Source: Sulfurospirillum diekertiae (lineage in GTDB: Bacteria > Campylobacterota > Campylobacteria > Campylobacterales > Sulfurospirillaceae). Taken from it: a DNA stretch of 64,000 bases. The position numbers and the translations under genes were made by a program. The notes under the pieces are model-generated. The model worked only from the letters and a program-made list of their open reading frames with translations, searched no databases and had not been told where the DNA came from. The stretch covers positions 434,001 to 498,000 of the forward strand of contig NZ_CP039734.2 of the NCBI RefSeq assembly GCF_011769985.2. Reading direction: 5' to 3'. Every line of letters begins with the position of its first letter. The first letter of the stretch is position 1. This document shows positions 2,184 to 62,266 of the stretch, piece after piece.

Positions 2184-2195
2184 TTTACATGTAAA
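2184..2195. repeat. TTTACATGTAAA palindrome, exact, intergenic
   Basis: Lies 7 bases beyond the mscL stop codon, between mscL and sodB. Confidence 0.95.
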
Positions 2196-2202
2196 CGTGT
2201 TC

Positions 2203-2631
2203 TTATGCTTGTAGTGTTGCGCAATAAGGACATTTTTTAGCGGCAACGGGAATAGCCATCGCACACTCTGGACATGCTTTTGTAATTGCCTCAGGAGCTT
2301 TTTTAGGCGCGATTTTTCCATAACCCTTGATCATCATAAACATGACAAAGCCCAAAATAACAAAGGAAGTTAAGTCATTGAAAAAGACACCTAGTTTTAT
2401 GGCAGGTGCTCCTGCTTTTTCCAAATCAGCTAATGAAGCATACGTTTTACCATCAAGTGCGATAAACAGTGAGGAAAAATCAACATTGCCTAAGAGTAGA
2501 CCAATAGGAGGCATAATGACATTGGTAACAAGCGATTTGACAATGGTCGCAAAGGCTGCACCAAAGATAAAACCAACGGCCATATCAACAACATTGCCTT
2601 TAAGCAAAAAATCGCGAAACTCTTTTAACAT
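2203..2631 (-). CDS. mscL: Large-conductance mechanosensitive channel with C-terminal zinc ribbon
   Basis: 142 aa from the ATG at 2631, preceded by AAAGGAG. The longer open frame upstream overlaps the acetyltransferase gene and is not needed. TM1 (about 16-45) carries the conserved VVDMAVGFIFGAAF, and TM2 is about 80-104. MscL opens under membrane tension to release solutes on osmotic downshock. The tail is unusual: after TM2 there are two CxxC pairs (Cys120/123 in CPEC and Cys134/137 in CPYC), which look like a rubredoxin-type zinc ribbon on the cytoplasmic C-terminal bundle. Standard MscL has no cysteines there. Family call is certain; metal binding is inferred. Confidence 0.93.
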   Translation of the reverse strand: MLKEFRDFLLKGNVVDMAVGFIFGAAFATIVKSLVTNVIMPPIGLLLGNVDFSSLFIALDGKTYASLADLEKAGAPAIKLGVFFNDLTSFVILGFVMFMMIKGYGKIAPKKAPEAITKACPECAMAIPVAAKKCPYCATLQA

Positions 2632-2641
2632 GAAAACTCCT

Positions 2642-3067
2642 TTAATAGGTGATTTGTTTGATAAAATATTTAGGGGATTCAACATAGCCATGTCGTTCGT
2701 AAAAACGATGCGCCTCTTTGCGCCTTTCATGACAATGTACTTCAATGCGATCGCATCCTCTCTCTTTGGCAATGTATGTGGCGTAAGCTTCGAGTTCTGA
2801 TCCAATGTGATGAGAGCGCATTGTTTCATCCACGATAAAATAACTGATACGTAAAAACGAGCCTAAAAGGGCAATTTGAGGAATTACATGTAAAGAGAGA
2901 AGGGCGATTACACTGCCTTCTATTTCATAGCAAAAGAGCATTGCATCAGGGTTGGCTAAAAGCTCTTGAATGCGTTCTTTACAGAAAGAGTGTGTATTGG
3001 CATAGCCCAGCTGAGCCAGAAGTTCAACAATACGATCACTGTCTTCCGCCGTGGCATTACGTATCAT
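2642..3067 (-). CDS. GNAT-family N-acetyltransferase
   Basis: 141 aa. N-terminal MIRNATAEDSDRIVELL and the central acetyl-CoA pyrophosphate-binding region (YFIVDETMRSHHIGSELE, about residues 80-98), then a C-terminal FYERHGY motif, are typical of GNAT enzymes. The glycine-rich loop RSHHIGS is a variant of R/QxxGxG/A. The substrate cannot be deduced. It lies 10 bases upstream of the mscL start and 8 bases after ribA on the same strand, so ribA, this gene and mscL could be one transcript. A near-copy of the genome palindrome (2883-2894) is inside the gene, read as LHVI. Confidence 0.85.
   Translation of the reverse strand: MIRNATAEDSDRIVELLAQLGYANTHSFCKERIQELLANPDAMLFCYEIEGSVIALLSLHVIPQIALLGSFLRISYFIVDETMRSHHIGSELEAYATYIAKERGCDRIEVHCHERRKEAHRFYERHGYVESPKYFIKQITY
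2883..2894. repeat. TTTACATGTAAA palindrome, one mismatch, in acetyltransferase CDS
   Basis: Reads ATTACATGTAAA on the plus strand. It is in the LHV frame of the minus-strand gene. Confidence 0.75.
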
Positions 3068-6188: not shown

Positions 6189-7565
6189 ATGATTGATTTT
6201 GATAAATTTGCTAAATATTCTAAACCAGGGCCAAGGTATACCAGTTACCCAACAGCACCTGAATTTCATGAGGGATTTACGCACCAAAGTTATGAGAGCA
6301 TTTTAGCTACGCAAGATAAAAGTCGTAAACTCTCGCTCTATTTTCATCTTCCATTTTGCCGAAGTGCCTGTTACTTCTGTGGATGTAATGTTGTTTATAC
6401 GAGCAAGGAAGATAAAAAAGAGCGTTACATTAGCTATCTTGAACGAGAGCTTGAATTGCTCTCTAAACATCTCGATACTTCGCGTGAAGTGATTCAGATG
6501 CACTTTGGTGGTGGTACACCAACATTTTTTAGCGCACCGCAATTGAAGCGCATTATTAGTGCTATCAGAAGCCACTTCAAAAACTTTGCCAAAGATGCTG
6601 AGATCAGCTGTGAGATCGACCCTCGCTATCTCACTAAAGAGCAGTTGGATGTGCTTACATGTAACGGATTTAACCGTGTCAGTTATGGCGTGCAAGACTT
6701 CAACGATGAGGTTCAAAAAGCGATCCACCGCATCCAACCTTATGAGGTAACCAACAATGTCGTTAAAATGGCAAAAAGCTCAGGTATTAAGTCGATCAAT
6801 ATGGACTTAATCTATGGGCTTCCGTATCAAACGTTTGAGACATTTCAAGAGACTCTTCGTTTAGCGGTATCGCTTGATCCGAGTCGTTTGGCAGTGTTTA
6901 ATTATGCCCATGTGCCGTGGATGAAAAAATCCATGCGTAAAATTGATGAGACAACACTACCTCATCCAAGCGTCAAGCTTGCTATTATGCGCTATACGAT
7001 TGATTATTTAGAGTCAAATGGCTATAAAATGATCGGCATGGATCACTTTGCAAAGCCTGATGATGAGCTTTTCTTGGCGATTGAAAAAGGGGAGCTACAC
7101 CGCAACTTCCAAGGATATACCACTAAAGGCGGCGCGGACTTAATCGGTATTGGTTTAACAAGTATTGGTGAGGGTTTGAAACACTATGTTCAAAACTTCA
7201 AAGAGATGGACGCTTATGAAAAAGCGATTGATGCGGGTGTATTGCCGGTGCATCGTGGTCTGACTCTCAATGATGATGATGTGCTTAGGAAAAGCTGTCA
7301 TTATGGAGATGATGAGCAACTTCAAACTCTGAATATCGCTGGTATTGAAGCTCAGTTTGGCATCGACTTTTTTGATTATTTTGCCGATGCAGTAGCTGCC
7401 CTTGCACCGTTTGAGCAAGAAGAGTTGGTAATCGTTGATAGAGTTGCTAAAAAGATTTTAGTCAACACGACAGGCACACTGCTTATTCGCAATATTGTGA
7501 TGCCTTTTGATGCATATCTCCAAAAAATCCCTGAAGATAAACGACGCTTCAGTAAAACGGTGTAA
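6189..7565 (+). CDS. hemN: Oxygen-independent coproporphyrinogen III oxidase
   Basis: 458 aa, the full HemN length. It is a radical-SAM enzyme that decarboxylates coproporphyrinogen III to protoporphyrinogen IX without O2. The cluster motif CxxxCxxC followed by C appears in FCRSACYFCGCNVVYTS (about residues 54-70). The SAM-binding GGGTPTF and the HemN C-terminal domain (GIGLTSIGEG) follow. It starts 8 bases after the UPF0763 gene and is followed after 3 bases by the Fe-S oxidoreductase. A degenerate copy of the genome palindrome at 6654-6665 is read as LTCN. Confidence 0.96.
   Translation: MIDFDKFAKYSKPGPRYTSYPTAPEFHEGFTHQSYESILATQDKSRKLSLYFHLPFCRSACYFCGCNVVYTSKEDKKERYISYLERELELLSKHLDTSREVIQMHFGGGTPTFFSAPQLKRIISAIRSHFKNFAKDAEISCEIDPRYLTKEQLDVLTCNGFNRVSYGVQDFNDEVQKAIHRIQPYEVTNNVVKMAKSSGIKSINMDLIYGLPYQTFETFQETLRLAVSLDPSRLAVFNYAHVPWMKKSMRKIDETTLPHPSVKLAIMRYTIDYLESNGYKMIGMDHFAKPDDELFLAIEKGELHRNFQGYTTKGGADLIGIGLTSIGEGLKHYVQNFKEMDAYEKAIDAGVLPVHRGLTLNDDDVLRKSCHYGDDEQLQTLNIAGIEAQFGIDFFDYFADAVAALAPFEQEELVIVDRVAKKILVNTTGTLLIRNIVMPFDAYLQKIPEDKRRFSKTV
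6654..6665. repeat. TTTACATGTAAA palindrome, 10-bp core, in hemN
   Basis: CTTACATGTAAC: the central ten bases are exact and both outer bases differ. It is in the TC (FTCK-type) frame. Confidence 0.6.
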
Positions 7566-7568: not shown

Positions 7569-8831
7569 ATGTTTAAATTTGATGTAACAAGCGATGCCTG
7601 TGTCAAGTGTGGTAAGTGTATACCTGTTTGTACAATTCACGAAGTCAACCGTGATGAAGTTACCAGTCCCAGAGGTTTTCTTGACCTTCTAGGTGCCTAT
7701 CAACGAGGTGAACTTGAACTGGACAAAAATGCTAAAAGTATTTTTGAAAGCTGTTTTTTGTGCACCAACTGCGTAAGTGTCTGTCCGAACGATTTGCCAG
7801 TCGATATGTTGATAGAACAAGCGCGTAACGACATTCGCAAAAAATTTGGGCTTGCATGGTACAAAAAACTCGCCTTTTTCTTGCTTCGCAATCGTAACAT
7901 CATGGATGTTCTTGCACGCTTTGGCTTTATGTTCCAAACCTGTGGTTTTAAAATAGTGGAGAAAAAAAGCTCCATGTATCTGCGAAACTTTCCCATTATC
8001 AAGATGGACAGACTTTTCCCAAGTCTCGCAAAAAAAACCTTCTTAAACTCCCATCCCGATGTCATCCATAATGGTGGCAAAGGCAAAGTGGGCATTTTCA
8101 TCGGCTGTTTAGCCAATTACATGTATACCGACATCGGCAAGTCACTTTTAGAGATTTTGAAAGAGTTGCAGATAGACGCGTATCTCATAAAACAACAAAA
8201 ATGCTGTGGTGCACCTCAATACTTTACAGGCGATTTTGATAGCGTGGATTATTTGGCAAAATTTAACATTGAGTACATCGAAGGCTTTGTAAATGAACTT
8301 GATGCCATCATTATTCCTGAAGCAACGTGTAGTGCGATGATCAAAGAGGACTACGCGCATTTTTTCCATGACCAACCTGAATGGAAAGCACGTGCCATTG
8401 CCATCAAACCTCACATTTTTATGGCAACCGAATACCTAGAGAAAAAGACAAATTTGGCTGAAATCTTGGCTACCAAAGCTCGTAAAAGTGAAGTAGTCAC
8501 CTACCATGACCCATGCCATGCGCGCAAAATGCAAGGCGTTTGGAAAGAGCCACGTAACCTCATTTCTCAAAACTACGTCATTAAAGAGATGAGCGACCCG
8601 AACCGCTGTTGTGGTTTTGGAGGCGTTACGATGCAAACAGGAAATTACCGCTTTGCCAAAGCCGCAGGACTTCCAAAAGCCGCGATGATCAAAGAGACGG
8701 GCGCAGAGTATGTGAGTGCCGAGTGTAGTGCGTGTCGCATGCAACTAGGCGATGCCATGCATGGGCAAAAAGTGGACACTATCTTTAAAAATCCAATCGA
8801 ATTGATTGCTAAAGCACTTCGAGAGGGTTAA
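7569..8831 (+). CDS. (Fe-S)-binding oxidoreductase, GlpC/glycolate oxidase iron-sulfur subunit type
   Basis: 420 aa. There are two N-terminal 4Fe-4S motifs (CVKCGKCIPVC near 12-22 and CFLCTNCVSVCP near 60-71), then two CCG domains (KCCGAPQYF near 214 and NRCCGFGGV near 345) with CHARK between. This is the layout of GlpC, GlcF and LutA-type subunits that pass electrons from a dehydrogenase to quinone or HdrB-like centres. No flavin subunit is adjacent, so the substrate is open. The same gene follows hemN in C. jejuni (Cj0991c), which points to a conserved but undefined partner role. It ends at a hairpin made of two genome palindromes. Confidence 0.85.
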   Translation: MFKFDVTSDACVKCGKCIPVCTIHEVNRDEVTSPRGFLDLLGAYQRGELELDKNAKSIFESCFLCTNCVSVCPNDLPVDMLIEQARNDIRKKFGLAWYKKLAFFLLRNRNIMDVLARFGFMFQTCGFKIVEKKSSMYLRNFPIIKMDRLFPSLAKKTFLNSHPDVIHNGGKGKVGIFIGCLANYMYTDIGKSLLEILKELQIDAYLIKQQKCCGAPQYFTGDFDSVDYLAKFNIEYIEGFVNELDAIIIPEATCSAMIKEDYAHFFHDQPEWKARAIAIKPHIFMATEYLEKKTNLAEILATKARKSEVVTYHDPCHARKMQGVWKEPRNLISQNYVIKEMSDPNRCCGFGGVTMQTGNYRFAKAAGLPKAAMIKETGAEYVSAECSACRMQLGDAMHGQKVDTIFKNPIELIAKALREG

Positions 8832-8839: not shown

Positions 8840-8851
8840 TTTACATGTAAA
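8840..8851. repeat. TTTACATGTAAA palindrome, exact, intergenic
   Basis: First member of the hairpin pair, 8 bases after the stop of the Fe-S oxidoreductase. Confidence 0.95.
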
Positions 8852-8861: not shown

Positions 8862-8873
8862 TTTACATGTAAA
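8862..8873. repeat. TTTACATGTAAA palindrome, exact, intergenic
   Basis: Second member of the hairpin pair, 10 bases after the first. Confidence 0.95.
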
Positions 8874-8979
8874 CAGAATACTTCTTAAAACAGAAAACTT
8901 TTGAGTCAATACTTCAGAGCAATCTAGAATAATTTGAGTATACTAAATCGCAGAACACTTTCTTTAGATGAGGTACATC

Positions 8980-11817
8980 ATGAAAGCGGTAATTTCTCTT
9001 CTTTTTATACTGATATCTTTTATGAGTTATTCACAGGCATCCAGTATTGATATTACGCCAAGTGAGCAAGCGTGGCTGGATAAAACTAAAATACTCAAAG
9101 TGCGCATCACCAAAGACCTTCCTCCGTATCAATTTATCCAAGATGGCGAATATGTTGGCATTAGTGTTGAATATATCAAATTTTTTGCAGCTATGTTTAA
9201 TCTCAAAATAGAATATGTTACCGATGGTAGCTGGACGGAAGCACTAAGACGTGTCCAAACACATGATGGTATCGATGTCATTTTGAGAGTCACTCCTAAT
9301 TCGGAGCTAAAACAAACGATGCTTTTTAGCAAATCTTATTGTTCCTTTCCATTTGCTCTCCTCACCCCAAGTACACTTAAAGCAGAAAATTTTTTCGATT
9401 CAAACCCCAAAAAAATAGCCATAGTGCCAAGTTATGTCATTAACGAGAACTTAAAACAGGATTATCCTCATTTCCTTTACATGACGTATCCCAATTCACT
9501 CGAAGCAATGAGGGCAGTCAATGCACACAGTGTAGATGGGTTTATTGGCGATATTGCTATTATGAGTATGTTTGTTCAGGCTTATCATTTAGATAATGTT
9601 CGAATTTCTAATATTCCCCGTTACACGACAGAGGAGCAATCGGTTGCAACTGCAAAAGATTGGCCAGAATTTATCTCTTTATTTAACAAAATGCTCGATT
9701 CTATGCCTACGGATTTACATGTAAAAATCAAACGAAAATATTTACCTTTCGCAACATCGGAACGACCTTCTCCCATTGTTCCCGAAATCGAATTAACCGA
9801 GAGTGAAAAAGCGTATCTTCAAAAGCACCCTGTTATTAGCGTGACTAATGAGCTTAGTTGGTATCCGTATGATTTTAATGAAGATGGAGAAGCTAAAGGG
9901 TATTCTGTTGATTATATGAGACTTCTAGCCGATAAAATTGGTATCCGTTTAAATTTTATCAGTGGCACATGGCCTAATGTGTATGAAAAATTTAAAAACA
10001 GAGAGATTAGCGTAGCGCAACCACTCATTCCCTCAGATGAGCGACATCAGAAATTTCTGTATAGCACTAAATTTATTACCATGGATCTGGCACTTGTTAG
10101 CCAAACAAAGCGTCACGATATTAACACTATTGATGATTTAAAGGGTAAAACCGTTGGTGCAGGGAGAGCGTGGCCCACAACAAAGTATCTTAAAGAGGAG
10201 TACCCTGAGCTTACAGTTGTAGAGTATGAGACAACGAAAGAGATGTTAGAAGCGGTTGCATTTGGGCTGATTGATGCAGGAGTAGATGATGCTTTATCGG
10301 TACAATACGTCATCAGTAAAGAGATGCTTTCCAATCTTCATATTGTCTCCAAACTTGATTTACAAAATTTAAGAGATAAAAATCTTTACATTATGATGCA
10401 TCCAGAAGATGAACCCTTACAGAGTATTATTAACAAAGCTCTCAATAACGTAACGCAAGAAGAGCTTTCTACCCTTAAATCCAAATGGTCTAAAAGTATT
10501 CTTCCTAAAGAGACGAGACTTGCTTTTTCACTGGATGAGCAAATTTATTTGGCACAAAAAAAGCGTATTACGATGTGTATTGACCCTGATTGGATGCCTT
10601 TAGAGATGAACCAAAAGGGTAAGCATGTAGGAATGGCTGCAGATTATATGCATGAGATGGAACAATTTATTGGTTTGCCTATCGAGCTTGTTAATACTCA
10701 AACATGGTTAGAATCTTTAGAATATGCCAAAGAACGTAAGTGTGATATTTTTTCTCTTGCCATGCCTACACCCGAACGCAGACTGTATATGAATTTTACC
10801 CATCCTTATATGCAAATACCCATCGTACTTATTTCCAATATTGATAAAGTTTTTTACACGGACATTGATATGCTGACTGGAAAATCCATTGGCATTGCAA
10901 AAGGGTATGCGTATGGTGAAATTTTAAAAGTACGATACCCCAATATGCACTTTGTGGAAGTTGCAAGTGATGCAGATGGTCTAAAGCACGTGGAGCAGAA
11001 AAAGCTTTTTGGCTATATCGGAACACTGGCTACGGTGGCATATCAAATTCAAAAAGATTACTATGGATCACTGAAAATTGTGGGTAAATTTGATGATAAA
11101 TGGGAGCTTGGTGTTGCAACGCGCAATGACGAACCTCTTTTGCTCTCTATTTTCGAAAAAGCGATTGAATCGATTGATCCAACCAAAAATCAATCGATCT
11201 TAAATAAATGGATATCGGTTAATTATGAAGAGCGTATGAATTACACCTACATCTATTTGTTAGCCGTGATCACGGTGGTGATTATTTTAATTGTTTTGAT
11301 ACGACAGTATCAACTCAAAAAGTATAATGCACAACTTGAAATTCTCTCCAATACGGATAAATTAACAGGCATTCATAACCGTTTAAAATTGGATGATATT
11401 TTAGAGTATGAAAAAAAGATATTTGATCGCGATCAGTCACCTCTTTCGATTATTATATTTGATTTGGATTATTTTAAAAATGTGAATGATAACTATGGAC
11501 ACAAACGAGGCGATGAGGTTCTCCAAAGTATTGCCAAAATTGTGACAAACGTTAAACGCGAAACGGATATATTTGGGCGCTGGGGTGGCGAAGAGTTTTT
11601 GCTTATCTGCCGTGATACCAACATTAAAGGTGCAAGACATTTAGCTGAAAAAATAAGAGCAGCTATTGAGGCATATGAATTTCCTGAAATTATCTCGGTA
11701 ACCGCTAGTTTTGGAACAGCACAATTTGAAAAGTATGACAGTATTATCAAAATTTTTGACAAAGCAGATAAAGCACTTTACGAAGCCAAAGAACATGGGC
11801 GTAACCGAGTCGTTTAA
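8980..11817 (+). CDS. Diguanylate cyclase with three tandem periplasmic solute-binding domains
   Basis: 945 aa from the ATG at 8980, which has GAGG six bases upstream. A signal peptide (about 1-22) is followed by three repeats of the type 3 solute-binding fold, each opening with a similar strand (KILKVRITKDLPPYQF, HPVISVTNELSWYPYDF, KRITMCIDPDWMPLEM). One transmembrane helix (about 757-775) leads to a GGDEF domain. The active site GGEEF and the RxxD inhibitory site (RETD, five residues before it) are intact, so it should make c-di-GMP and be product-inhibited. The sensor resembles BvgS/amino-acid binding proteins, so polar ligands such as amino acids are likely. It is monocistronic, between two palindrome sites. 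Confidence 0.92.
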   Translation: MKAVISLLFILISFMSYSQASSIDITPSEQAWLDKTKILKVRITKDLPPYQFIQDGEYVGISVEYIKFFAAMFNLKIEYVTDGSWTEALRRVQTHDGIDVILRVTPNSELKQTMLFSKSYCSFPFALLTPSTLKAENFFDSNPKKIAIVPSYVINENLKQDYPHFLYMTYPNSLEAMRAVNAHSVDGFIGDIAIMSMFVQAYHLDNVRISNIPRYTTEEQSVATAKDWPEFISLFNKMLDSMPTDLHVKIKRKYLPFATSERPSPIVPEIELTESEKAYLQKHPVISVTNELSWYPYDFNEDGEAKGYSVDYMRLLADKIGIRLNFISGTWPNVYEKFKNREISVAQPLIPSDERHQKFLYSTKFITMDLALVSQTKRHDINTIDDLKGKTVGAGRAWPTTKYLKEEYPELTVVEYETTKEMLEAVAFGLIDAGVDDALSVQYVISKEMLSNLHIVSKLDLQNLRDKNLYIMMHPEDEPLQSIINKALNNVTQEELSTLKSKWSKSILPKETRLAFSLDEQIYLAQKKRITMCIDPDWMPLEMNQKGKHVGMAADYMHEMEQFIGLPIELVNTQTWLESLEYAKERKCDIFSLAMPTPERRLYMNFTHPYMQIPIVLISNIDKVFYTDIDMLTGKSIGIAKGYAYGEILKVRYPNMHFVEVASDADGLKHVEQKKLFGYIGTLATVAYQIQKDYYGSLKIVGKFDDKWELGVATRNDEPLLLSIFEKAIESIDPTKNQSILNKWISVNYEERMNYTYIYLLAVITVVIILIVLIRQYQLKKYNAQLEILSNTDKLTGIHNRLKLDDILEYEKKIFDRDQSPLSIIIFDLDYFKNVNDNYGHKRGDEVLQSIAKIVTNVKRETDIFGRWGGEEFLLICRDTNIKGARHLAEKIRAAIEAYEFPEIISVTASFGTAQFEKYDSIIKIFDKADKALYEAKEHGRNRVV
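9714..9725. repeat. TTTACATGTAAA palindrome, exact, in GGDEF sensor CDS
   Basis: Read in frame as LHVK at the end of the first solute-binding domain. Confidence 0.92.
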
Positions 11818-11819: not shown

Positions 11820-11831
11820 TTTACATGTAAA
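11820..11831. repeat. TTTACATGTAAA palindrome, exact, between convergent genes
   Basis: Fills nearly the whole 17-base gap between the stop of the GGDEF sensor and the stop of the convergent sotB-like gene. It may serve as their shared 3-prime signal. Confidence 0.95.
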
Positions 11832-13013: not shown

Positions 13014-13151
13014 TACAAAAAGCCTTATGATAATTAGGCGATTATTGTAACTAAAGAAGTAATAGAAGCAGTTGAATTCACCTGTTGTGGAAGAGGAGAT
13101 TTAATGAAATGCGTGTATAATAATTGACTCAATATGATTCAAAGAGGAAGA

Positions 13152-13556
13152 ATGAAAGAAGCAAATCTCTGTCCATGCGGTAGTGGTAAAATGTATGCAC
13201 AGTGTTGCGAGCTATACCACAAAAACTATAACGCTCCTACATGTGAAACACTGATGCGTTCACGCTACAGCGCATTTGTCTTTGGATTGATCGATTACCT
13301 CTATGAAACGACGCATCCAAGCCATCGTACAAAGAAATTGAAAGAAGAAATTACCTTTACATGTAAAGGTTTGGCGTGGACAAAACTCGAAGTTTTGGAG
13401 ACATGGCAAGGCGGTGAAAATGACAAAGTGGGCAAAGTCTCTTTTCGAGCTTCGTATGTGCAAGATGGGCATGAAGGTTTACATGGTGAACATTCACGTT
13501 TTAAACGCTATGGTAAGGCGTGGATGTATGTTGATGGAGAAGTAAAGGGCGAATAA
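13152..13556 (+). CDS. YchJ-like protein with SEC-C zinc motif (UPF0225)
   Basis: 134 aa from the ATG at 13152, because GAGGAAG precedes it. An ATG 18 bases earlier has no ribosome site. The N-terminal CPCGSGKMYAQCC is the SEC-C zinc-binding motif also found at the SecA tail. TLMRSRYSAFVFGLIDYLYETTHPS is the YchJ family core. Function is not known for certain. It has only the N-terminal SEC-C copy, whereas E. coli YchJ has two. The stop overlaps the start of the Crp-family gene (TAATG), so the two are coupled. A 16-bp extended palindrome (13354-13369) is read as FTCK. Confidence 0.85.
   Translation: MKEANLCPCGSGKMYAQCCELYHKNYNAPTCETLMRSRYSAFVFGLIDYLYETTHPSHRTKKLKEEITFTCKGLAWTKLEVLETWQGGENDKVGKVSFRASYVQDGHEGLHGEHSRFKRYGKAWMYVDGEVKGE
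13356..13367. repeat. TTTACATGTAAA palindrome, exact, in ychJ-like CDS
   Basis: Extended to a 16-bp palindrome by CC and GG on either side. It is in the FTCK frame. Confidence 0.92.
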
Positions 13557-14983: not shown

Positions 14984-15011
14984 TGCTGTACTCATGATGA
15001 GAGGAAAATGC

Positions 15012-17330
15012 ATGGCGCGATTGAAATTGTTATCTAAGTCATTTCTTTTTGCATTATTAATTTTAGTATGTGGAGTAAGTTTTTCTGGCTATTTAGCATG
15101 GAAAAGTGCAACATGGATCCAAACATTAGAAAATGAACGATTTACAACAGCTACAAAACAAACTGCTCTTTTAATCCGCAATAAGCTTAATGAAAATATC
15201 CAACTGCTTCATAGTGCTGTAGCATTTATCACGGCTTCTGATAATGTTACTAGAGAAGAGTGGTATTTTTTTACAAAAGAGCATACCCTTGAAACAAGTT
15301 TTATAGGACAAGAAGGGTTAGTGTATGCGCCACGTATAAAAATCAATGAGCGTACTCAACATGAAGAACTTATGCACGCAGAGGGATTAACACATTATCA
15401 GATTCATCCTAAAACATCTAATGCAGATGCGTATCCTATTGTTTTGATTGAACCGTTTAATGAACGCAATAAAAAGGCACTTGGGTTTGATCTATTTTCT
15501 GAGACAACACGCCAAAATGCTATAAAAGAAGCAATACAAAAAAGAGATATCGCTATCTCTTCCAAAATACAATTGATTCAAAGAGCAGATTCTGAACTAA
15601 ATGCAGGTTTTATTATTGTTCATCCCATTTACACTAAAGATATATTGATTAAAACACCTGAAAAGCAAGATGATGCATTCATAGGAATAGTCAGTATTGC
15701 CATCAATGCTCAAAAATTGTTTATGGATGTTTTAGGCGCTAGGTATATTACTTTGGATTTTGAAATCTATGATGGGGATACTCTGCTTGAAACAGAAAAA
15801 TTGTATGATTCCAACCCTTCAATGAAAACAGCACGTTTAGAGCATAATTTACTGATAGATATTTATGGGAAACACTGGACGCTTCATTTTAAAACAAATG
15901 AAGCACTGGATCTTGGCATAAGTCAGTATTTACCATGGATTGAACTTTTTTTTGGGATAGCATTTTCATTTATACTCGCTGGATGGATTTATGCGCTTCA
16001 ACAAACACAAAAAAAAGCATACGCTATAGCTGCTGATAAGACAAAACTCCTTGCTAAGTCCGAATCAAAGATACGCACTATTTTTCAAACAATGCAAGAA
16101 GGTATTATTGTTTTGGATAAAGAACGGATTATTATAGAGTGTAATTTAGCCGCGCAAGGGATGTTAGGGTTTTCCAAAAGTGAGATTGTTGGTAAATCGA
16201 GTAATGATTTGAATTGGAATTTCATCCATGAAGATGGCTCTGCATTTCATATGGAAGATCGTCCATATTATAAAGTCTTTATGACAGGTGTACCACAAAG
16301 CAATATTATGATTGGCATGAAACGACAAGATAGTTTGGTTTTATGGCTAAAAATGAATGCACAGCCTCTTTACTCTGATGATTTTAAAGATGTTAATTCA
16401 GTGCTTATTACGTTTAGTGATATTACGGAGTATCAAAAATCCAAACGCGAGCTTGAAAAATATCTTCAAATTATTGATGCACATGTGATTATTTCAAGTA
16501 CCGATTTACATGGGATTATCACCGAAGTGAGTGAGGCATTTTGTAAAATTTCGGGGTATAGCCAAGAAGAACTTATTGGCAGAAGTCATAATATCGTGAG
16601 ACATCCCGATATGCCTACGACACTGTATAAAGAGATGTGGAGTGCTTTAAAAAAAGGTATTTCATGGTCTGGTGAGATTAAAAATAGACGCAAAGATGGA
16701 TCTGATTATTGGATAGAGACGATTATTGAACCTCGGTATGATGAGGAGTATTCCCTAGTGGGGTTCACTGCAATTCGTCATGATATTACGGATAAAAAAA
16801 GAGTTGAAGAGCTCTCCATTACCGATCGTTTGACGGGGCTGTATAATCGCCTTAAACTTGATGAACTTTTTGCATCGTATCTTAGTATTACCAAACGGCA
16901 TCAAACGCCTTTTTCAATCGTTCTTCTAGATATTGATAAATTCAAATCGGTGAATGATACGTATGGGCATCAAGTAGGAGATAGCTTGCTGCAAGAGATA
17001 GCAAAACTTTTAAAAACCAATGTTCGTTTTGAAGATGCTGTAGGAAGATGGGGAGGGGAAGAATTTTTGATTCTTCTCCCCAATAGTAATAGTGAAGATG
17101 CACGGCTATTGGCAGAAAAGCTTCGTGGTGTCATTGAAGCAGAAGATTTTGCGTACGTAGGAAGTCGTACAGCCAGTTTTGGCGTGGCAACATATCATCA
17201 AAATGATGATGAAAAAAGTATGACTGCACGAGCCGATGAGGCGCTCTACCTTGCAAAAGAGAATGGTCGTAACCGTGTTGAAGTGGAAATACATACGTGT
17301 AATTTGCCATCTTCCTCAACTCCCTCTTAA
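15012..17330 (+). CDS. CHASE-PAS-PAS-GGDEF diguanylate cyclase
   Basis: 772 aa from the ATG at 15012, six bases after AGAGGA. Earlier in-frame ATGs at 14994 and 14997 precede that ribosome site. TM1 (about 9-31) and TM2 (about 305-328) enclose a periplasmic CHASE domain, with features such as GFDLFSETTRQNAI and AGFIIVHPIY. Two PAS domains follow (about 350-470 and 475-590, the second with FCKISGYSQEELIGRSHNIVRHPDMP, which resembles aerotaxis-type PAS). The GGDEF domain has an intact GGEEF and an upstream RxxD (RFED). It should make c-di-GMP in response to an external ligand and possibly redox. It reads toward lgt but is probably separate. Confidence 0.92.
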   Translation: MARLKLLSKSFLFALLILVCGVSFSGYLAWKSATWIQTLENERFTTATKQTALLIRNKLNENIQLLHSAVAFITASDNVTREEWYFFTKEHTLETSFIGQEGLVYAPRIKINERTQHEELMHAEGLTHYQIHPKTSNADAYPIVLIEPFNERNKKALGFDLFSETTRQNAIKEAIQKRDIAISSKIQLIQRADSELNAGFIIVHPIYTKDILIKTPEKQDDAFIGIVSIAINAQKLFMDVLGARYITLDFEIYDGDTLLETEKLYDSNPSMKTARLEHNLLIDIYGKHWTLHFKTNEALDLGISQYLPWIELFFGIAFSFILAGWIYALQQTQKKAYAIAADKTKLLAKSESKIRTIFQTMQEGIIVLDKERIIIECNLAAQGMLGFSKSEIVGKSSNDLNWNFIHEDGSAFHMEDRPYYKVFMTGVPQSNIMIGMKRQDSLVLWLKMNAQPLYSDDFKDVNSVLITFSDITEYQKSKRELEKYLQIIDAHVIISSTDLHGIITEVSEAFCKISGYSQEELIGRSHNIVRHPDMPTTLYKEMWSALKKGISWSGEIKNRRKDGSDYWIETIIEPRYDEEYSLVGFTAIRHDITDKKRVEELSITDRLTGLYNRLKLDELFASYLSITKRHQTPFSIVLLDIDKFKSVNDTYGHQVGDSLLQEIAKLLKTNVRFEDAVGRWGGEEFLILLPNSNSEDARLLAEKLRGVIEAEDFAYVGSRTASFGVATYHQNDDEKSMTARADEALYLAKENGRNRVEVEIHTCNLPSSSTPS

Positions 17331-17352: not shown

Positions 17353-17364
17353 TTTACATGTAAG
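17353..17364. repeat. TTTACATGTAAA palindrome, one mismatch, between GGDEF gene and lgt
   Basis: TTTACATGTAAG. It lies 22 bases after the GGDEF stop, and its right end merges with the TAAGGA ribosome site of lgt. Confidence 0.8.
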
Positions 17365-26421: not shown

Positions 26422-26443
26422 TTATCTTTACATGTAAAGATAA
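26422..26443. terminator. 22-bp perfect palindrome centred on a TTTACATGTAAA copy
   Basis: The 12-mer at 26427-26438 is extended by TTATC on the left and GATAA on the right into a 22-bp perfect palindrome, 29 bases after the dynamin operon. Likely a 3-prime end signal of that operon. Confidence 0.6.
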
Positions 26444-26897: not shown

Positions 26898-26906
26898 ACA
26901 TGTAAT
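26895..26906. repeat. TTTACATGTAAA palindrome, one mismatch, forming the stop codon of the AI-2E transporter
   Basis: TTTACATGTAAT. On the minus strand it reads CAT TAC ATG TAA, so the protein ends HYM and the palindrome supplies its TAA. Confidence 0.8.
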
Positions 26907-40813: not shown

Positions 40814-40830
40814 TCTTTACATGTAAAGAT
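40813..40830. repeat. 18-bp palindrome containing an exact TTTACATGTAAA
   Basis: 12-mer at 40816-40827, extended by ATC and GAT. It fills the 18-base gap between convergent stop codons of the endonuclease and the GGDEF-EAL gene, like the site at 11820. Confidence 0.95.
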
Positions 40831-47376: not shown

Positions 47377-47388
47377 ATTACATGTAAA
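47377..47388. repeat. TTTACATGTAAA palindrome, one mismatch, intergenic
   Basis: ATTACATGTAAA, 13 bases beyond the nadD-rsfS stop. The rest of 47213-47401 holds only the receptor upstream region. Confidence 0.8.
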
Positions 47389-50609: not shown

Positions 50610-52158
<1,549 letters not shown>

Positions 52159-53322: not shown

Positions 53323-53334
53323 TTTACATGTAAA
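53323..53334. repeat. TTTACATGTAAA palindrome, exact, intergenic
   Basis: 14 bases after the lipoprotein stop. Confidence 0.95.
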
Positions 53335-53344: not shown

Positions 53345-53356
53345 TTTACATGTAAA
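53345..53356. repeat. TTTACATGTAAA palindrome, exact, intergenic
   Basis: 7 bases beyond the nusA stop. Confidence 0.95.
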
Positions 53357-53363: not shown

Positions 53364-54488
53364 TTAAAGTCCGCCAAAAAGGTTTTTAAGGGCGTTTGGA
53401 TCACGTTGTTCTGCTTGTTCATCACTGCTTGCATCACTGTTTGCAGTTGTTCCACCCGATTCGACCAATTCAATTTCAAATCCTGTTAACATCGAAGTAA
53501 GACGAATATTGATGCCATTCTTACCAATTGCTTTTGATTTTTGATCGCTTGGAAGCGTTACAATGGCTTTACCATTTTGAATTTTGACATTGGAAATAAT
53601 CGCAGGAGAAAGAGCACGTGCGATGAAGATTTCAGGAATATTGGAGTATTCGATACAGTCAATATTTTCATTATGTAACTCTTTACTGACCGCATTAATT
53701 CTCACACCTTTTGTACCGACAGTTGCCCCAACAGCGTCAATATTAGGGTGCAATGAACTGAGTGCTACTTTTGCGCGTTCTCCTGGAATTCTAGCACTGC
53801 CAATAATCTTAATGAGTTCATCTTTGATCTCAGGAACTTCAAGTTCTAAAAGAGATTCTAAAAATTTTGGACTGGTACGAGAAAGTTCGACATACATTCC
53901 TTGTGTTTTATCAATGAGAACTTTACGAATGACACTTTTGACCACGTTGCCGACTTTAAATTTTTCACCTTTGATACGGTTTTTGCGTGGCAATACCGCT
54001 CTAATTTCTTCAATTTCAATATAGGTATTTTCATCGTTATCAACGCGCACGACAGATCCAAAAACAGTTTTGCCTACAAGTTTTTGATATTTTTCAAAAA
54101 TATTGTTTTCAAGGAGACGTTGAATGTGGTATTCAAGCTCTTTTTGAAGCGTTGCTGCTGCGGTTCTTCCTAGATTATCAAGTGGCAATTCATAGGTAAG
54201 TTCATCACCAATTTCGATCTCTGGGTCAACCTCTTTAGCATCTTTAATAGCAATAAAATTTTCATTACCTTCTAAAAGTCTTGTATCATCAGGTTCAACG
54301 ACAATGACTTTTTGATAGAGTTTAAGTGTTTTAGTGGCTGGGTCTATTTCTGCGCCATATTCGTATTCTGCGCCATAAATTCTTTTGGCTGTTTTGACAA
54401 GAGCAAGTGTAACGGTATTTTTAACTTCGTTAATATCCAACCCTTTTTCATGGGCAATAGATTCTATAATGTCTATAATTTTTTCCAT
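53364..54488 (-). CDS. nusA: Transcription termination/antitermination factor NusA
   Basis: 374 aa. N-terminal RNA polymerase-binding domain, an S1 domain (about 130-200), and two KH domains (IPGERAKVALSSLHP and GATVGTKGVRINAVSKEL, then SKAIGKNGINIRLTSMLTG). It modulates pausing and termination. It lacks the acidic AR1/AR2 repeats of E. coli NusA, as is usual outside gammaproteobacteria. AAGGA lies before the ATG. Divergent from the HP0268-like gene across about 250 bases, which hold a TATAAA-type -10 for nusA (near 54520) and no gene. Confidence 0.97.
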   Translation of the reverse strand: MEKIIDIIESIAHEKGLDINEVKNTVTLALVKTAKRIYGAEYEYGAEIDPATKTLKLYQKVIVVEPDDTRLLEGNENFIAIKDAKEVDPEIEIGDELTYELPLDNLGRTAAATLQKELEYHIQRLLENNIFEKYQKLVGKTVFGSVVRVDNDENTYIEIEEIRAVLPRKNRIKGEKFKVGNVVKSVIRKVLIDKTQGMYVELSRTSPKFLESLLELEVPEIKDELIKIIGSARIPGERAKVALSSLHPNIDAVGATVGTKGVRINAVSKELHNENIDCIEYSNIPEIFIARALSPAIISNVKIQNGKAIVTLPSDQKSKAIGKNGINIRLTSMLTGFEIELVESGGTTANSDASSDEQAEQRDPNALKNLFGGL

Positions 54489-54991: not shown

Positions 54992-56308
54992 TTGGGTATT
55001 TTAGAGGAAAAGAAACTTTATATAGAAACACTTGGTTGCGCGATGAATGTGCGAGATTCTGAGCACATTATCGCCGAACTAGGTGATAAAGAAAATTATG
55101 TCTTGACCAATAGTCTGCAAGAGGCAGATCTTATTTTGGTCAACACATGTAGTGTACGTGAAAAGCCTGTGAGTAAACTGTTTTCAGAGATTGGTAAGTA
55201 TAACCTTCAAAAAAAAGAGGGTGCAAAAATTGGTGTATGCGGATGTACCGCAAGCCACTTAGGAAAAGAGATTTTTAGACGGGCTCCCTATGTGAGTTTT
55301 GTCATTGGAGCACGTAATGTCTCCAAAATCTCCACTGCCGTTAATACCGAAAAATTTTTAAGTGTCGACACCGATTATGATGAGAGTACGTACGCTTTTG
55401 GCGAGTATCGCAATAGTCTTTACAAAGCGTATGTGAATATCTCCATTGGGTGTGATAAAAAATGTACCTACTGCATCGTCCCGCAAACGAGAGGCGATGA
55501 GATATCCATTCCTGCAGAATTGATTGTCAATGAAGCACGCAAAGCTGCTCAAAATGGGGCTAAAGAGATTTTCTTACTCGGTCAAAATGTAAACAATTAT
55601 GGCAGACGTTTTAGCGGTAACGTAGAGCGTTCCATGGATTTTTCAGACCTACTTAACCTTATCAGTGAAATCCCCGAAGTAGAGCGCATTCGTTTTACTT
55701 CTCCCCATCCCCTGCATATGGATGATAAATTTTTAGAGACTTTTGCCAATAATCCAAAAGTATGTAAGTCAATGCACATGCCATTGCAGAGTGGTTCCAC
55801 GCATATCTTAGAGCAGATGAAACGGGGTTATAGCAAAGAGTGGTTTTTAAATAGAGCTTTAAAACTTCGTGAAATGATTCCTGATGTCTCTATTAGTACC
55901 GATATTATTGTCGCTTTTCCAGGGGAAAGTGATGCCGATTTTGAAGATACACTGGATGTCATGCGACACGTGAAATTTGAACAGATTTTCGCCTTTAAAT
56001 ACTCGCCAAGACCTCTAACCAAAGCGGCAGAGTTTACCAATCAAATCGATTCGGAAGTAGGGTCACAGCGCTTAGAGCGATTACAACTTTTACAAGATGA
56101 AATTTTAGATGAGATTGCCGCGAAAAACCTCAATAAAATTTATCCTGTTTATATTGATGAACTGCGTAATAGTGGTTTTTTAGCAGGACGAAGTGATAAT
56201 AATGCACTGGTTCAGATTAAAGGTGATGAGAGTTTATTGGGACAAACCGTAAATATCAAAATTACCAACCCAAAACGTCTCTCCCTCTATGGCGAAATTG
56301 TTCTCTAA
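54992..56308 (+). CDS. miaB: tRNA-2-methylthio-N6-isopentenyladenosine synthase MiaB
   Basis: 438 aa from a TTG start eight bases after AAGG. It adds the methylthio group to i6A37 of tRNAs. Auxiliary cluster cysteines include [18 protein letters not shown] and VCGCTA, the radical-SAM motif is CDKKCTYC with IVPQTRGDE, and a C-terminal TRAM domain ([22 protein letters not shown]) is present. The C-terminus overlaps the next gene by 20 bases. Its paralogue rimO lies at 60126. Confidence 0.96.
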
Positions 56309-56924
56309 AGAGTTTAAACGTAAACTCTTAGTGTGGATTGTTCCACCTCTTATTTATGCATTGATTAAACTTTTATTCTTTACATGTAAAAAGAAATTTT
56401 ATCGTCCGCAGAATGGTTCTGCTACGCCGAGTATCTATGTTTTGTGGCATGGCGAGATACTGATGGCAGCCGCAGCTTACACATACTATACGAAACGTGT
56501 AGAGGCTGATACCATTGTCAGTAGTCATTTTGATGGTGAATTGGCCGCAAGGCTAATGCAGCTTTTTGGTGGAGGAACGATACGTGGAAGCTCATCCAAG
56601 GGAGGGGCTTCTGTTTTAAGGCAGGCGTTAAAGTCACTTCAAAAAGGACGCGATATCGCTCTCACCCCTGATGGACCAAGAGGGCCAAGACACAGTGTAG
56701 CCGATGGTGCCGCAGTGCTTGCAATGATGAAAAAAGTACCGATTATTACCATGAATTGCAATCCAACCTCGTATTGGAGCATGAAGAGTTGGGATCACTT
56801 TTGTATTCCTAAACCATTTTGTACGATAGAATTCTATTTTGGTAATCCTTTCTATGTTCATGAACTCTCACTTGAAGAGGCAAAATCATTGATCCAAAAG
56901 CGACTTTTAGAGCATGCGGTGTAA
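56289..56924 (+). CDS. DUF374 lysophospholipid acyltransferase family protein
   Basis: 211 aa. An N-terminal hydrophobic helix (about 10-28) and the acyltransferase-like core: [13 protein letters not shown] (HxxxxM variant), [29 protein letters not shown], and [17 protein letters not shown]. Related to the LPLAT superfamily and to lipid A acyltransferases. The acceptor is unknown. It overlaps miaB by 20 bases. Palindrome at 56379 read as FTCK just after the hydrophobic helix. Confidence 0.87.
56379..56390. repeat. TTTACATGTAAA palindrome, exact, in DUF374 gene
   Basis: Read as FFTCKK. Confidence 0.92.
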
Positions 56925-58646: not shown

Positions 58647-59178
58647 CCTTGATAGAAGCTTAGAAAAAATAGATATTATGAAATTGCTCATTTTTTTGAT
58701 GGTGTTTATCATCATTACCTTTAGTTTTGTTTTCTTACTCATTATTCCTAATGTAAAAGAGCATCGTGTTCTTCAAGCAGAATATAAACGGGTCTTGGTG
58801 CATAAAACCAGAGTTGAGAACCTTTTCTTAGAGCGAGAAGCAGAGCTTTCCAAACTCAAAGCAGAAAATGTCCATATAATGAGTGCGTTCAAGCATCCTT
58901 TTACACAAGAAGAGTTTATTCGTTATGCGGGAACATTCTTTAAGCAAGTTTCTTTAACAGAAGTAACCAAATCAGACTATAAAAAAGAGTTTGTTGAGTA
59001 CGAGCTCAATGTAACATCAACATTGAAAACACCCACAAATTTTTATAACTTTTTAGAGGGACTTAACCGCTATTCCAGTATTGTTCAAGCAGATTTCCCT
59101 ATTCATTTAGAATCTGGAAAAGAGAATATTAGCTCTACCTTTAAGATTAAAGTGTATGATCTAAACGCAACGCGCTAA
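58639..59178 (+). CDS. PilO-like inner-membrane protein (tentative)
   Basis: 179 aa from a GTG at 58639, chosen for GAGGA eight bases before. An ATG at 58630 overlaps that site. One membrane helix (about 14-38), a coiled coil with many charged residues, and a C-terminal domain with EYELNVTSTLKTPTNFYNFLEGLNRYSSIVQADFP, close to the PilO pattern in which a NF-x-x-FL segment precedes a strand. It ends the three-gene set and overlaps the convergent tilS gene at their 3-prime ends by 32 bases. No secretin, ATPase or pilin gene is nearby. Confidence 0.65.
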   Translation: MNSLDRSLEKIDIMKLLIFLMVFIIITFSFVFLLIIPNVKEHRVLQAEYKRVLVHKTRVENLFLEREAELSKLKAENVHIMSAFKHPFTQEEFIRYAGTFFKQVSLTEVTKSDYKKEFVEYELNVTSTLKTPTNFYNFLEGLNRYSSIVQADFPIHLESGKENISSTFKIKVYDLNATR

Positions 59179-60151
59179 GATCAATATGCGAAGTAAAGAG
59201 GTAAGAGCGAATCTTTGAAGGAATGCGTGCTTGACGGCACCTCTCTTTAAATTTTTTATCCATAGCTTGCTTGAGATACGGTGCTATCAAAATCATTTTT
59301 TCTTCAAAACAGACTGCAATTTTTCCACCCACCACACAGCTCTTCGTTTTTAAAATCTCATCCCTTTGCGCTTTTGATAAGAGAATACCGAGGAGTTTGA
59401 CTATTTTATCAATATGACGAATATTGATCAGGTCATCTTCATCTTTGGGAAGGAGAAATAAGTCTTTGATGCGAGTAGCCTGATGGGGTAAAAGACGTTT
59501 AGCATCTTCTTCCATATAGCGAAAACTTTTAGCGATACCCTCCTCATAATTTTCGATCAACGGATTGGCATAGTGATGGCGAAATTGGTTGCGTACATGT
59601 TTGAAAGAGGTGTTGCTTTCGTCAGTAAAGTAAGTAATTTTATAATTTTCAAGATAGGCTTGAAGTGTTTTTTTGTTGACATGTAAAAGAGGTCGGATCA
59701 TCGTGTAATGCTCTCGCTCTTCTATCTCTTGCATACCCAATAATTCAACAAGCCCAGCACCACGAGTTAGCTGCATTAAAAACCATTCAAGTTTATCGTT
59801 TAAATGGTGTGCGCTTAAAAGTGAATTGTAGCCATGTTCTTGGATGATGTTTTCAAAAAAGGTATAACGCTCTTTCCTCGCAGAGTGTTCAAAATTGGCA
59901 TTTTCAAGTTTACATGTAAAGGTGAAAAGTTGTTTATTGTAAGTATCGGCAAGTTTTTTTGCATACGCTTCTTCGACGTCACTTTGCTCTCTTGTTTGAT
60001 AATTCACATGGGCAATATCAAAAGGGATATTCTGCTCAAGCAGTAAAAAGAAGAGGGCGGTAGAGTCTCCACCGCCTGAGAATGCCAAAAGATTTTTGGA
60101 TGTTTTAAGAAGGTCAATCGTTGCGTTATGCAACAGAGGTAATGGTTGCAA
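59147..60151 (-). CDS. tilS: tRNA(Ile)-lysidine synthetase
   Basis: 334 aa from a TTG at 60151 with GGGAG upstream. A GTG at 60187 is possible but overlaps rimO by more. It converts C34 of tRNA-Ile(CAU) to lysidine. PP-loop [17 protein letters not shown] and the [17 protein letters not shown] segment with IRPLL are TilS landmarks. A C-terminal region of about 100 residues is present. Exact palindrome at 59909 (FTCK) and a near copy at 59676 (LHVN) are inside. Its 3-prime end overlaps the PilO-like gene convergently. Confidence 0.94.
59676..59687. repeat. TTTACATGTAAA palindrome, one mismatch, in tilS
   Basis: TTGACATGTAAA, read on the minus strand as LLHVN. Confidence 0.6.
59909..59920. repeat. 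TTTACATGTAAA palindrome, exact, in tilS
   Basis: Read on the minus strand as FTCKL. Confidence 0.92.
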
Positions 60152-61436
60152 TGAGTTGATCTCCCGCACACTCCGTAATCGTTGCACGGTAGCAAAGGCC
60201 TACTTCAATGTTCTCAATATCGGAGTCATTAACCAAGACTTCGCCATCAATGCTCGGTGCCCAGAGAAGCTCGCGTGCGCCCATAAAAAACTCATGCTCG
60301 CTACTTTCTCCTTCAACCAAGATGATCACCTCTTTGCCGACCTCTTTTTCAAAACTTTTTTTCGTTTTGGCTTGGACGAGTTTGTCAAGTTGTTTAATGC
60401 GTTTATTGATCGTTTTGGTGTCGATTTTTTCATCCATTTCATAAGCGGAAGTGTCTTCTTCATCGGAATAGGCAAAGATGTTCACACGATCAAAATCAAA
60501 CGTTTTGGTGAAGTCCAAAAGCTCTTGAAACTCTGCTTCACTTTCACCCGGGTGACCCACAATAAAGCTGGTGCGAATAAAGCTATTGGGCGCTTGGCGC
60601 ATAAGGTTAAGTTGCTCAATGATACGCTCACGTCCAGCCCCTCGTTTCATACGTTTAAGCATAGAATCGCTGATGTGTTGGATCGGCATATCAAAGTAAT
60701 TATGAAAGAGGGGAGAGCTAATAATGCGCTCAATTAAAGCATTGGATGTTGTCGTTGGATAAAGATATAAAATGCGCGCACTTTTCACGCCTTCGATTTG
60801 CTCTACGGCCTCAATGAGTTTAATCAAACCCTCTTTTTCGCCCACATCACGAAGAAAGGAGCTACTATCCTGCGAGATAAAGCTAAAATCATAAAAACCT
60901 TTTGAAACGAGTGCTTTGACCTCTTTCACTAAAGATTCCAATGTTCGAGAATGGAGTTTGCCTTTAAAGCCAGGAATAGCGCAAAAGCTACACGCTTGAT
61001 TACAGCCTTCGGAAAGTTTGACATACGCATGTGCATTTGAGCCTGTAATAATACGTTCTTCTTCGTTTAAAAGGTATGTTGCAGGGCTAAAACGGTTTTG
61101 GCGAAGTGCGATGATTTCATCAATTTTATCATAATCCCCCACGCCCGTAAACAGATCAACCTCTTTGAGCTCTTTCGTCAAATCTTCTTTGTAGCGTTCG
61201 GTAAGGCAGCCTGCCATCACAAGCAACGAGCCTTTTTTACGGGCTTCATGCAGTGAAAAAATGGTGTTAAGACTCTCTTCTTTCGCAGGTCCAATGAAGC
61301 CACACGTATTGACGATCAAGACATCGGCCTGACTTGGGTCATCGCACATTTCATAGGCTTGAAGTTTGCCAAGCATGACTTCACTGTCAACGAGATTTTT
61401 GTTGCAGCCAAGTGAGACTAAATGTAGTTTTTTCAA
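60126..61436 (-). CDS. rimO: Ribosomal protein S12 methylthiotransferase RimO
   Basis: 436 aa from a TTG at 61436 with AAGGA six bases upstream, giving the canonical N-terminus [20 protein letters not shown]. An ATG at 61454 would overlap panC and lies before that ribosome site. It adds a methylthio group to an aspartate of S12. Auxiliary cluster cysteines (GCNKNL, NTCGFI, AGCLTE), the radical-SAM motif [15 protein letters not shown] and a TRAM domain are present. Followed by tilS as in C. jejuni. Confidence 0.95.
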
Positions 61437-61444
61437 TGTATTCC

Positions 61445-62266
61445 TTAAATCCATAAATTATCAATGAGGCGAGTCGTGCCAACTTTGGCGCAGACGAGAA
61501 TGATGGAGTTGCCTATTTCAATGGTTTCTATTGTATCAAAATCACGATTTAAAATTTCCACGTATTCTACATGTAAAGGTGCTAGGGTGCGCAACATTTC
61601 AGCTTTAATAGCCTCAATATGACGCTCTCCAGCGATAATGTCATGGGTTGCCACTTTGAGGGATTCGCACAGTAAAAGTGCCTCTTGGCGCTCTTTTGCA
61701 TTTAGGTACACATTGCGACTAGAAAGCGCTAAATCATCATCTTCTCTGACGATTTCACAAGGAACAATTTCCAAATCCAGAAAGAGGCTTTTAACCATAT
61801 TTTGAATCAAATAGAGTTGTTGCGCATCTTTTTTACCAAAATAAGCCCGTGTTGGTTTGGTCAAGTTAAACAGTTTCAGAACCACACGTAAAACACCATC
61901 AAAATGACCAGGGCGAGCTAGTCCTTCAAGAATATAGGCTTTAGCGCTTGGTGCTAGGATACTTGGCTCGAGAGAGGAGTACATTACTTCAGGGGTCGGC
62001 ATAAATAAAATACTTACGCCTGCAAGTTCACAAATTTTAATATCGGCTTGAGTACGCTTAGGGTAGGTATTAAAATCTTCTCCTACTAGAAATTGGGTAG
62101 GGTTGACAAATACAGAGACAATGGCATGATCATTTTGAGCTACAGCATTTTGCATTAAAGAGAGGTGTCCATTGTGCAATGCTCCCATAGTTGGAACAAA
62201 GCCTATGGTACCTTTTAACTCGCTTCTAGCGAGCTTGAGTTCATCAATCGTTTTTACTATTTTCAT
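61445..62266 (-). CDS. panC: Pantothenate synthetase
   Basis: 273 aa from the ATG at 62266. A GTG three codons earlier is possible. It ligates pantoate and beta-alanine. [14 protein letters not shown] near 27-40, [21 protein letters not shown], the [10 protein letters not shown] segment and the SSRNVYL loop are intact. It shares the pantothenate pathway with panB, encoded at 28961, but is not in an operon with it. No good ribosome site is visible before either start. Near-palindrome at 61566. Confidence 0.95.
61566..61577. repeat. TTTACATGTAAA palindrome, one mismatch, in panC
   Basis: TCTACATGTAAA, read on the minus strand as LHVE. Confidence 0.6.

Follow-up and report, generated by a model that had tools for sequence, protein, structure and literature searches.

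An iterated palindrome maintained across the genome of Sulfurospirillum diekertiae, a candidate self-recognition sequence for natural transformation

A palindrome iterated through genes and gaps

The window, that is, the whole 64-kb stretch of the Sulfurospirillum diekertiae chromosome analysed here (G000:C1:434001-498000), carries 17 exact copies of the 12-bp palindrome TTTACATGTAAA, and 30 of its places match the palindrome at two or fewer mismatches, compared with 8.7 ± 2.5 in shuffles. The data support a recognition site that is maintained genome-wide: the 2,777,717-bp genome, made up of two contigs (C1, the chromosome, and C2, a plasmid of 39,868 bp), holds 791 exact copies of TTTACATGTAAA and a single copy of the reversed control, together with ~1,400 copies of the 8-letter core of the motif. 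The original prediction had named 17 exact and 8 near copies; all of them were recovered, the near copies with one mismatch in seven cases and two in the copy at 6654, and the mismatches at 59676 and 61566 fall within the 10-bp core, TTACATGTAA. Throughout, G000 denotes the source genome, other G numbers the compared genomes and L numbers sampled stretches. The copies in the window, in window coordinates, are as follows.

2184..2195: exact copy, intergenic, 8 bp beyond the stop of the minus-strand gene 2203..2829
2883..2894: 10-bp core (ATTACATGTAAA), within the minus-strand gene 2642..3067
6654..6665: 10-bp core (CTTACATGTAAC), within coding sequence (CDS) 6189..7565; absent in G022 and G012
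8840..8851: exact copy, first of a pair at 22-bp spacing, directly after the stop of CDS 7569..8831
8862..8873: exact copy, second of the pair, partner of 8840..8851
9714..9725: exact copy, within CDS 8968..11817 (SBP_bac_3-GGDEF protein)
11820..11831: exact copy, filling the gap between convergent genes that end at 11817 and 11835
13356..13367: exact copy, within CDS 13134..13556
17353..17364: 10-bp core (TTTACATGTAAG), 23 bp beyond the stop of CDS 14994..17330
22427..22438: exact copy, within CDS 21999..24371 (dynamin-like)
25195..25206: exact copy, within CDS 24368..26392 (dynamin-like)
26427..26438: exact copy, 35 bp beyond the stop of CDS 24368..26392
26895..26906: 10-bp core (TTTACATGTAAT), overlapping the stop codon of minus-strand CDS 26896..27936
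31707..31718: exact copy, within minus-strand CDS 31613..32365
35336..35347: 10-bp core (TTTACATGTAAC), within CDS 35157..35930
40816..40827: exact copy, filling the gap between convergent genes that end at 40813 and 40832
47377..47388: 10-bp core (ATTACATGTAAA), shortly beyond the stop of minus-strand CDS 47402..48283
48012..48023: exact copy, within minus-strand CDS 47402..48283
51221..51232: exact copy, within CDS 50610..51323
53323..53334: exact copy, first of a pair at 22-bp spacing, beyond the stop of the nusA-like minus-strand CDS 53364..54488
53345..53356: exact copy, second of the pair, partner of 53323..53334
56379..56390: exact copy, within CDS 56289..56924
59676..59687: degenerate copy (TTGACATGTAAA), within minus-strand CDS 59147..60187
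59909..59920: exact copy, within minus-strand CDS 59147..60187
61566..61577: 8-bp core copy (TCTACATGTAAA), within minus-strand CDS 61445..62275

Over-representation and shape of the motif

Oligomers were ranked in a sample of G000 comprising the window and 20 other places (464 kb, 17% of the genome; the other genomes were sampled at ~1-10%). TTTACATGTAAA and its one-base shifts head all 12-mers (135 copies, compared with 6.2 from a fifth-order Markov model, a figure that the motif's own copies have already raised), and the 10-bp core occurs in 203 copies compared with 0.7 expected under a third-order model, with 21 copies for the runner-up among palindromic 10-mers. The core is present in every sampled 20-kb stretch, at 2 to 14 copies, so that the motif is spread over the whole chromosome. 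The massive over-representation first claimed for the window thus holds for the genome, and the 791 genomic copies and their chromosome-wide spread exclude both a count near the Markov expectation and confinement to this region.

The consensus is (C)TTTACATGTAAA(G), a perfect palindrome with a symmetric flank preference. The 10-bp core hardly varies: 57 one-mismatch forms of the 12-mer depart from it in the outermost position, compared with roughly twelve at all inner positions. The half-sites TTTAC...GTAAA are found 137 times at a spacing of 2, and the remaining spacings up to 8 together account for five cases. With so few single-mismatch forms and alternative half-site spacings, the TTACATGTAA core is the true unit. 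The excess of one-mismatch forms beyond chance, per exact copy, is 0.08-0.16 in the maintaining genomes G000, G016, G012 and G024, ~0.9 in G028 and G032, and far higher in G020 and G033. Avoidance of, or restriction at, ACATGT was rejected because this hexamer is at expectation outside the motif.

Placement, hairpin pairs and imprint on the proteome

With gene calls from a simple scorer, 119 of 202 classified core sites lie within genes, which make up 90% of the DNA, and 83 are intergenic; this places 41% of sites in the 10% of DNA that is non-coding. The strongest preference is for convergent gaps (25 sites in 3.4 kb), and many sites lie a few bases past stop codons; divergent gaps hold 13 sites, and no concentration in promoter regions is seen. 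Sites within genes are distributed flatly along gene length, with 78 and 39 in the stop-free reading frames and 2 in the third, which has an internal stop. Among Leu-His-Val tripeptides in the sample, 88 of 102 are written TTACATGTA, compared with 3.3% expected from codon use; the motif has therefore shaped the proteome.

Pairs of copies 22-23 bp apart just past stop codons fold as hairpins of 14-15 bp (-17 to -18 kcal/mol, z score about -6), including the two pairs in the window (8840/8862: 14 bp, -17.3 kcal/mol, z score -6.3; 53323/53345: 15 bp, -18.4 kcal/mol, z score -5.8), and a lone copy, tested in one sequence, does not fold. Only ~20 close pairs occur among the 203 sites in 464 kb. Outside the pairs, sites are 2.1 kb apart on average, a spacing slightly more regular than chance would give (coefficient of variation 0.85), and the sequences that flank different copies are mutually unrelated. 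One sampled stretch contains an island of sugar-nucleotide and glycosyltransferase-like genes (L047:7359-17258) that is missing from the homologous region of G020.

Maintenance and loss between species

The original prediction had proposed examining conservation at orthologous positions, and alignment with congeners at these positions provides the main result. In G016 (81% nucleotide identity), 51 of 58 G000 sites are intact (P ~1e-38 compared with neutral expectation), as are 20 of 25 in G012 (81% identity), 28 of 29 in G022 (93%) and 10 of 15 in G024 (74%). Between G000 and G016, core identity is 99.2%, compared with 71-74% for bases 4-10 bp away and 81% on average. By contrast, none of 46 sites survives in G020 (82% identity, 14 genomic copies), where the core has diverged to the same extent as the sequence beside it (78.6%) and 38 of the 46 sites were lost by substitutions alone (1-5), in alignments without gaps. 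Sites in G020 decay freely, whereas relatives hold theirs letter by letter. The intact sites of G016 and their complete loss from the equally close G020 argue for a lineage-specific maintaining factor, which G020 has lost.

Among G016 sites without a G000 counterpart, 12 of 15 differ by at least four mismatches or an indel; a comparable pattern in Neisseria has been interpreted as recombinational gain (PMC2397512). Kilobase-scale gene conversion between species as a means of rescue was rejected because the flanks are not conserved.

Distribution and dialects

Exact 12-mers number 549-792 in most genomes of genus g1, though several species have fewer; elsewhere in the family, g4 and g5 range from 7 to 346 and g2 is near zero. 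The 8-mer core TACATGTA, counted with a control in 397 genomes of the class, lies far above control in family f1 (up to 1727 compared with 38), in several f8 genomes (G221, 848; G391, 782; G381, 675; G168, 611; G156, 608; G354, 527; G333, 368) and in f3 (G361, 1480; G346, 246), and is near control almost everywhere else. The spread of the motif is thus patchy across three families, and even inside one genus (g13).

Related genomes also differ in the form of the motif. The flank at position -1 is T in g1, C in G008 and mixed in G037 and G038; TGACATGTAA/TTACATGTAA is the form in G021, CTACATGTAG that in G008 and partly in G037 and G038, and plasmid C2 carries a different mix. In G008, CTACATGTAG is a dialect shifted at one base: it occurs four times in the 20 kb of L177, where 0.02 would be expected, and the genome as a whole has just two copies of TTTACATGTAAA.

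Further excesses were seen at lower levels. Genus g44 of family f2 has a mild excess of TACATGTA (G320, 50 compared with 2; G309, 45 with 8; G312, 42 with 5; G300, 30 with 7; G244, 28 with 2), perhaps a weak or decaying form of the motif. G010, which is motif-poor and carries the methylase described below, has a weaker excess of ATCATGAT/TATCATGATA (26 compared with 6.8 and 7 with 0.6, in L063, L064 and L158-L161), possibly another dialect around CATG. Plasmid C2 has 4 cores compared with 17.7 expected, and 14 copies of the 8-mer TACATGTA in 39.9 kb compared with 0.75 expected; the flanks of the latter are unlike the chromosomal ones, as though the plasmid came from a host with another dialect.

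Candidate maintaining factors

A solitary D12-class adenine methylase of 325 aa, with FAGSG and DPPY motifs and no adjoining restriction gene, is encoded outside the window (L050:1817-2794, minus strand; G000:C1:2481820-2482794). Relatives are annotated as 'ulcer associated adenine specific DNA methyltransferase', and from this annotation only we predict an enzyme of the hpyIM type acting on CATG, the centre of the motif; methylases of that type modify CATG (PMC4450513). In genus g1, the median copy number is 657 in the 17 genomes with the gene and 124 in the 7 without it (P = 5e-4), and in f8 the gene is present in 5 of 8 rich and 5 of 43 other genomes (odds ratio 12.7, P = 0.0045), both associations being uncorrected for phylogeny. 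In G020 the gene is absent without trace between its conserved neighbours. However, it was not found in the motif-rich genomes G024 (1201 cores, sharp), G035 (1124), G168, G391, G333 and G346, and many motif-poor genomes carry relatives at 53-54% identity, among them f2 genomes, which we take to be Helicobacteraceae. Given rich genomes without the gene and f2 carriers without the motif, the methylase is a correlate, neither necessary nor sufficient. As sole maintainer it was rejected because several sharp, motif-rich genomes lack it, and PF01555 methylases showed no pattern of filling the gap. Among the families searched, a methylase predicted to modify the motif occurs in most genomes that carry it but not in G024, G035, G168 and G391. 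Next to the methylase lies a gene for a small, lysine-rich protein of secreted type (L050:1554-1808), which is kept in G020 (L316:4590-4845). The plasmid has a methylase of its own, 55% identical to the chromosomal CATG-type enzyme (G000:C2:1692-2600, in L099), and a related 38-kb plasmid, NZ_CP045454.1, likewise carries one.

G000 also encodes machinery for natural transformation: a cts-like operon (secretin, ATPase, platform protein and further genes), prepilin-like genes and ComEC. Every genome tested, G020 and motif-poor ones among them, has intact ComEC and an intact type II/IV pilus platform protein, so their loss was rejected as an explanation of G020 or of the poor genomes. Prepilins adjoining comEC vary between species and, judged by eye, showed no pattern of rich and poor genomes. 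A ParB/Noc/KorB-like protein was rejected as well, since 28 of 31 genomes, rich or poor, have one chromosomal ParB and extra members do not track the motif.

Comparison with known iterated sequences

To our knowledge, only two bacterial families are well known for accumulating uptake sequences that mark their own DNA, and HIP1 is the one well-known palindromic counterpart, its function still open. In the DNA uptake sequences (DUS) of Neisseriaceae and the uptake signal sequences (USS) of Pasteurellaceae, as here, hundreds to thousands of copies occupy permissive spots, each site is far more conserved than its surroundings, close pairs serve as terminator hairpins, related species have dialects, and codons and amino acids bear an imprint. 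Neisserial DUS have 97% identity compared with an average of 85%, with flanks below that average, and their close inverted pairs are terminators (PMC2397512). The Sulfurospirillum motif likewise combines over-representation by orders of magnitude, conservation above that of its permissive surroundings, hairpin pairs at gene ends and a natural-transformation machinery, though the last is not specific to motif-rich genomes. On depletion in foreign DNA, another trait of uptake sequences, the signs are mixed: plasmid C2 has fewer cores than expected, and L047, with its glycosyltransferase island, is not depleted. It differs in belonging to another phylum, in its very sharp 10-bp core, in being known here from sequence alone and in its perfect palindrome; all known DUS and USS are non-palindromic and bear an orientation, although this is not necessarily required.

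The original prediction likened the motif to HIP1 or to uptake sequences. Both likenesses proved apt in part: location, conservation, dialects and pairs fit uptake sequences best and the palindrome fits HIP1, while the function itself stays a candidate. Like cyanobacterial HIP1 (GCGATCGC), the motif is a highly iterated palindrome, the most over-represented oligomer of its genome, with a central methylase site (predicted here) and preferred flanking bases; some lineages carry substituted forms or, in a patchy manner, lack it altogether, and it is associated with a solitary methylase. HIP1 proper, however, is cyanobacterial and GC-rich with a GATC core, whereas TTTACATGTAAA is another sequence, A+T-rich and longer, and here the methylase association is imperfect and the gene-end bias and hairpin pairs are strong.

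A precedent nearer in phylogeny is Campylobacter jejuni, which takes up only DNA carrying the methylated palindrome RAATTY (PMC8468864, PMC8627207), a sequence that one C. coli genome contains 28,482 times (PMC8627207). Sulfurospirillum shares with the RAATTY/CtsM system the class of bacteria, a palindromic self-signal (putative in its function here) and a solitary methylase that is probably of the same superfamily. The D12 methylase shares ~33% identity with a methylase of ~372 aa that is present across genus g7 of f3 and that we presume, from size and conservation only, to be CtsM. RAATTY differs in being frequent by chance and not enriched into a long motif; in Sulfurospirillum a rare long motif has accumulated.

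That no such element had been described for Campylobacterota, as the original prediction stated, held up in the searchable papers: titles and abstracts, with subscription literature and preprints outside the search, yielded neither a description of the 12-mer or its 10-bp core as a bacterial repeat nor any report of uptake sequences or iterated palindromes in Sulfurospirillum or Campylobacterota.

Interpretation

We favour, with confidence that is about even, the interpretation that the motif is a self-recognition sequence for natural transformation, because its iteration, site-limited conservation, gene-end preference, hairpin pairs, dialects and losses in single lineages match DUS and the RAATTY precedent of C. 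jejuni. The motif would act as a genome-wide self-recognition tag, the uptake signal of natural transformation; kin DNA taken up by the cell would replace mutated copies and spread new ones, so that cores (TACATGTA) would build up to roughly one every 2 kb at the least harmful positions. In most of these genomes the solitary methylase, hpyIM-like, would probably methylate the CATG at the centre of the motif (C-m6A-TG), and this methylation may be part of recognition, as a second layer, in the manner of methylated RAATTY. More speculatively, and on balance improbably, the solitary CATG methylase and a dimeric receptor would read one palindrome as a methylation-coupled uptake code, an accumulated tag whose species dialects limit gene exchange; a phylum known to recognise methylated self-DNA through RAATTY would here have turned that signal into a genome-wide tag.

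We caution that uptake as the function of the motif, the existence of a receptor and a role for methylation are what we infer, and several points weigh against this interpretation. We know of no DUS or USS that is a palindrome. G020 has lost the constraint and yet keeps intact cts-like and comEC genes, which motif-poor relatives possess as well, so the uptake machinery does not by itself account for the motif. The stretch L047, with its strain-specific glycosyltransferase island, holds 10 cores and shows no depletion. No receptor was found, and transformation of Sulfurospirillum is undocumented in the searchable literature.

An alternative interpretation, which we regard as rather doubtful, is a HIP1-like element, in which a CATG methylase together with repair or conversion would change near-matches to the palindrome and keep them in that form, as in Elhai's model for cyanobacterial HIP1 (PMC4390886). 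The methylase site at the centre of the palindrome recalls GATC in HIP1 (PMC4390886), the copy-number associations in the genus and in f8 involve just such a solitary enzyme, and its clean deletion in G020 coincides with free decay of the sites; however, the six motif-rich genomes without this methylase, for which PF01555 enzymes are no substitute, the many motif-poor carriers of its relatives and the lack of phylogenetic correction all detract from it.

Less probable still is a site for a chromosome-organising (nucleoid-associated) protein every 2 kb, which would help to fold or segregate the chromosome or to insulate transcription where genes end. A palindrome is typical of dimeric DNA-binding proteins, and the even chromosomal spread, gene-end preference and strong constraint per site would suit such a role, but no binding protein was found, ParB/Noc/KorB proteins, whose sites have a similar layout, have one chromosomal member in nearly all genomes examined, rich or poor, hundreds of protein-altering sites within genes (as in the Leu-His-Val tripeptides) would be costly for mere architecture, and such a role accords less well with the dialects and with the loss of the motif between close species.

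Ordinary regulation or termination, in which the motif would serve a very large regulon as its operator or be a preferred stem for terminators, is highly unlikely. Close pairs do make stable hairpins past stop codons, but they are few, a lone copy does not fold, and 59% of sites lie in genes in a flat distribution, with divergent gaps not favoured; the view that a single regulon operator was unlikely is thus borne out, with 13 of 202 sites in divergent gaps and 119 in genes. As a main function this explanation is largely refuted, although the pairs can act as terminators as a side effect, which is also the case in DUS. Insertion of a selfish, mobile palindrome, despite the high copy number, is next to untenable and was rejected, since most orthologous places in G020 align without gaps, as sites decayed in place and not as empty ones, and the flanks of different copies are unrelated.

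Self-recognition in natural transformation, if correct, would add a third lineage to the bacteria that accumulate tags. Because sister species have or have lost the system, with dialects and with a candidate methylase lost in one, the maintenance of such motifs becomes testable by comparison and by transformation assays. Tag-bearing DNA may also transform organohalide-respiring Sulfurospirillum better, which would be of practical value for genetics.

Minor observations

AATATCATGATA is over-represented in G000 as well (6 compared with 0.16). In the G000 sample (window and L031-L050), GGCC reaches only 0.30 and CCGG 0.49 of the expected count, a strong avoidance that suggests past or present restriction at GGCC-type sites.

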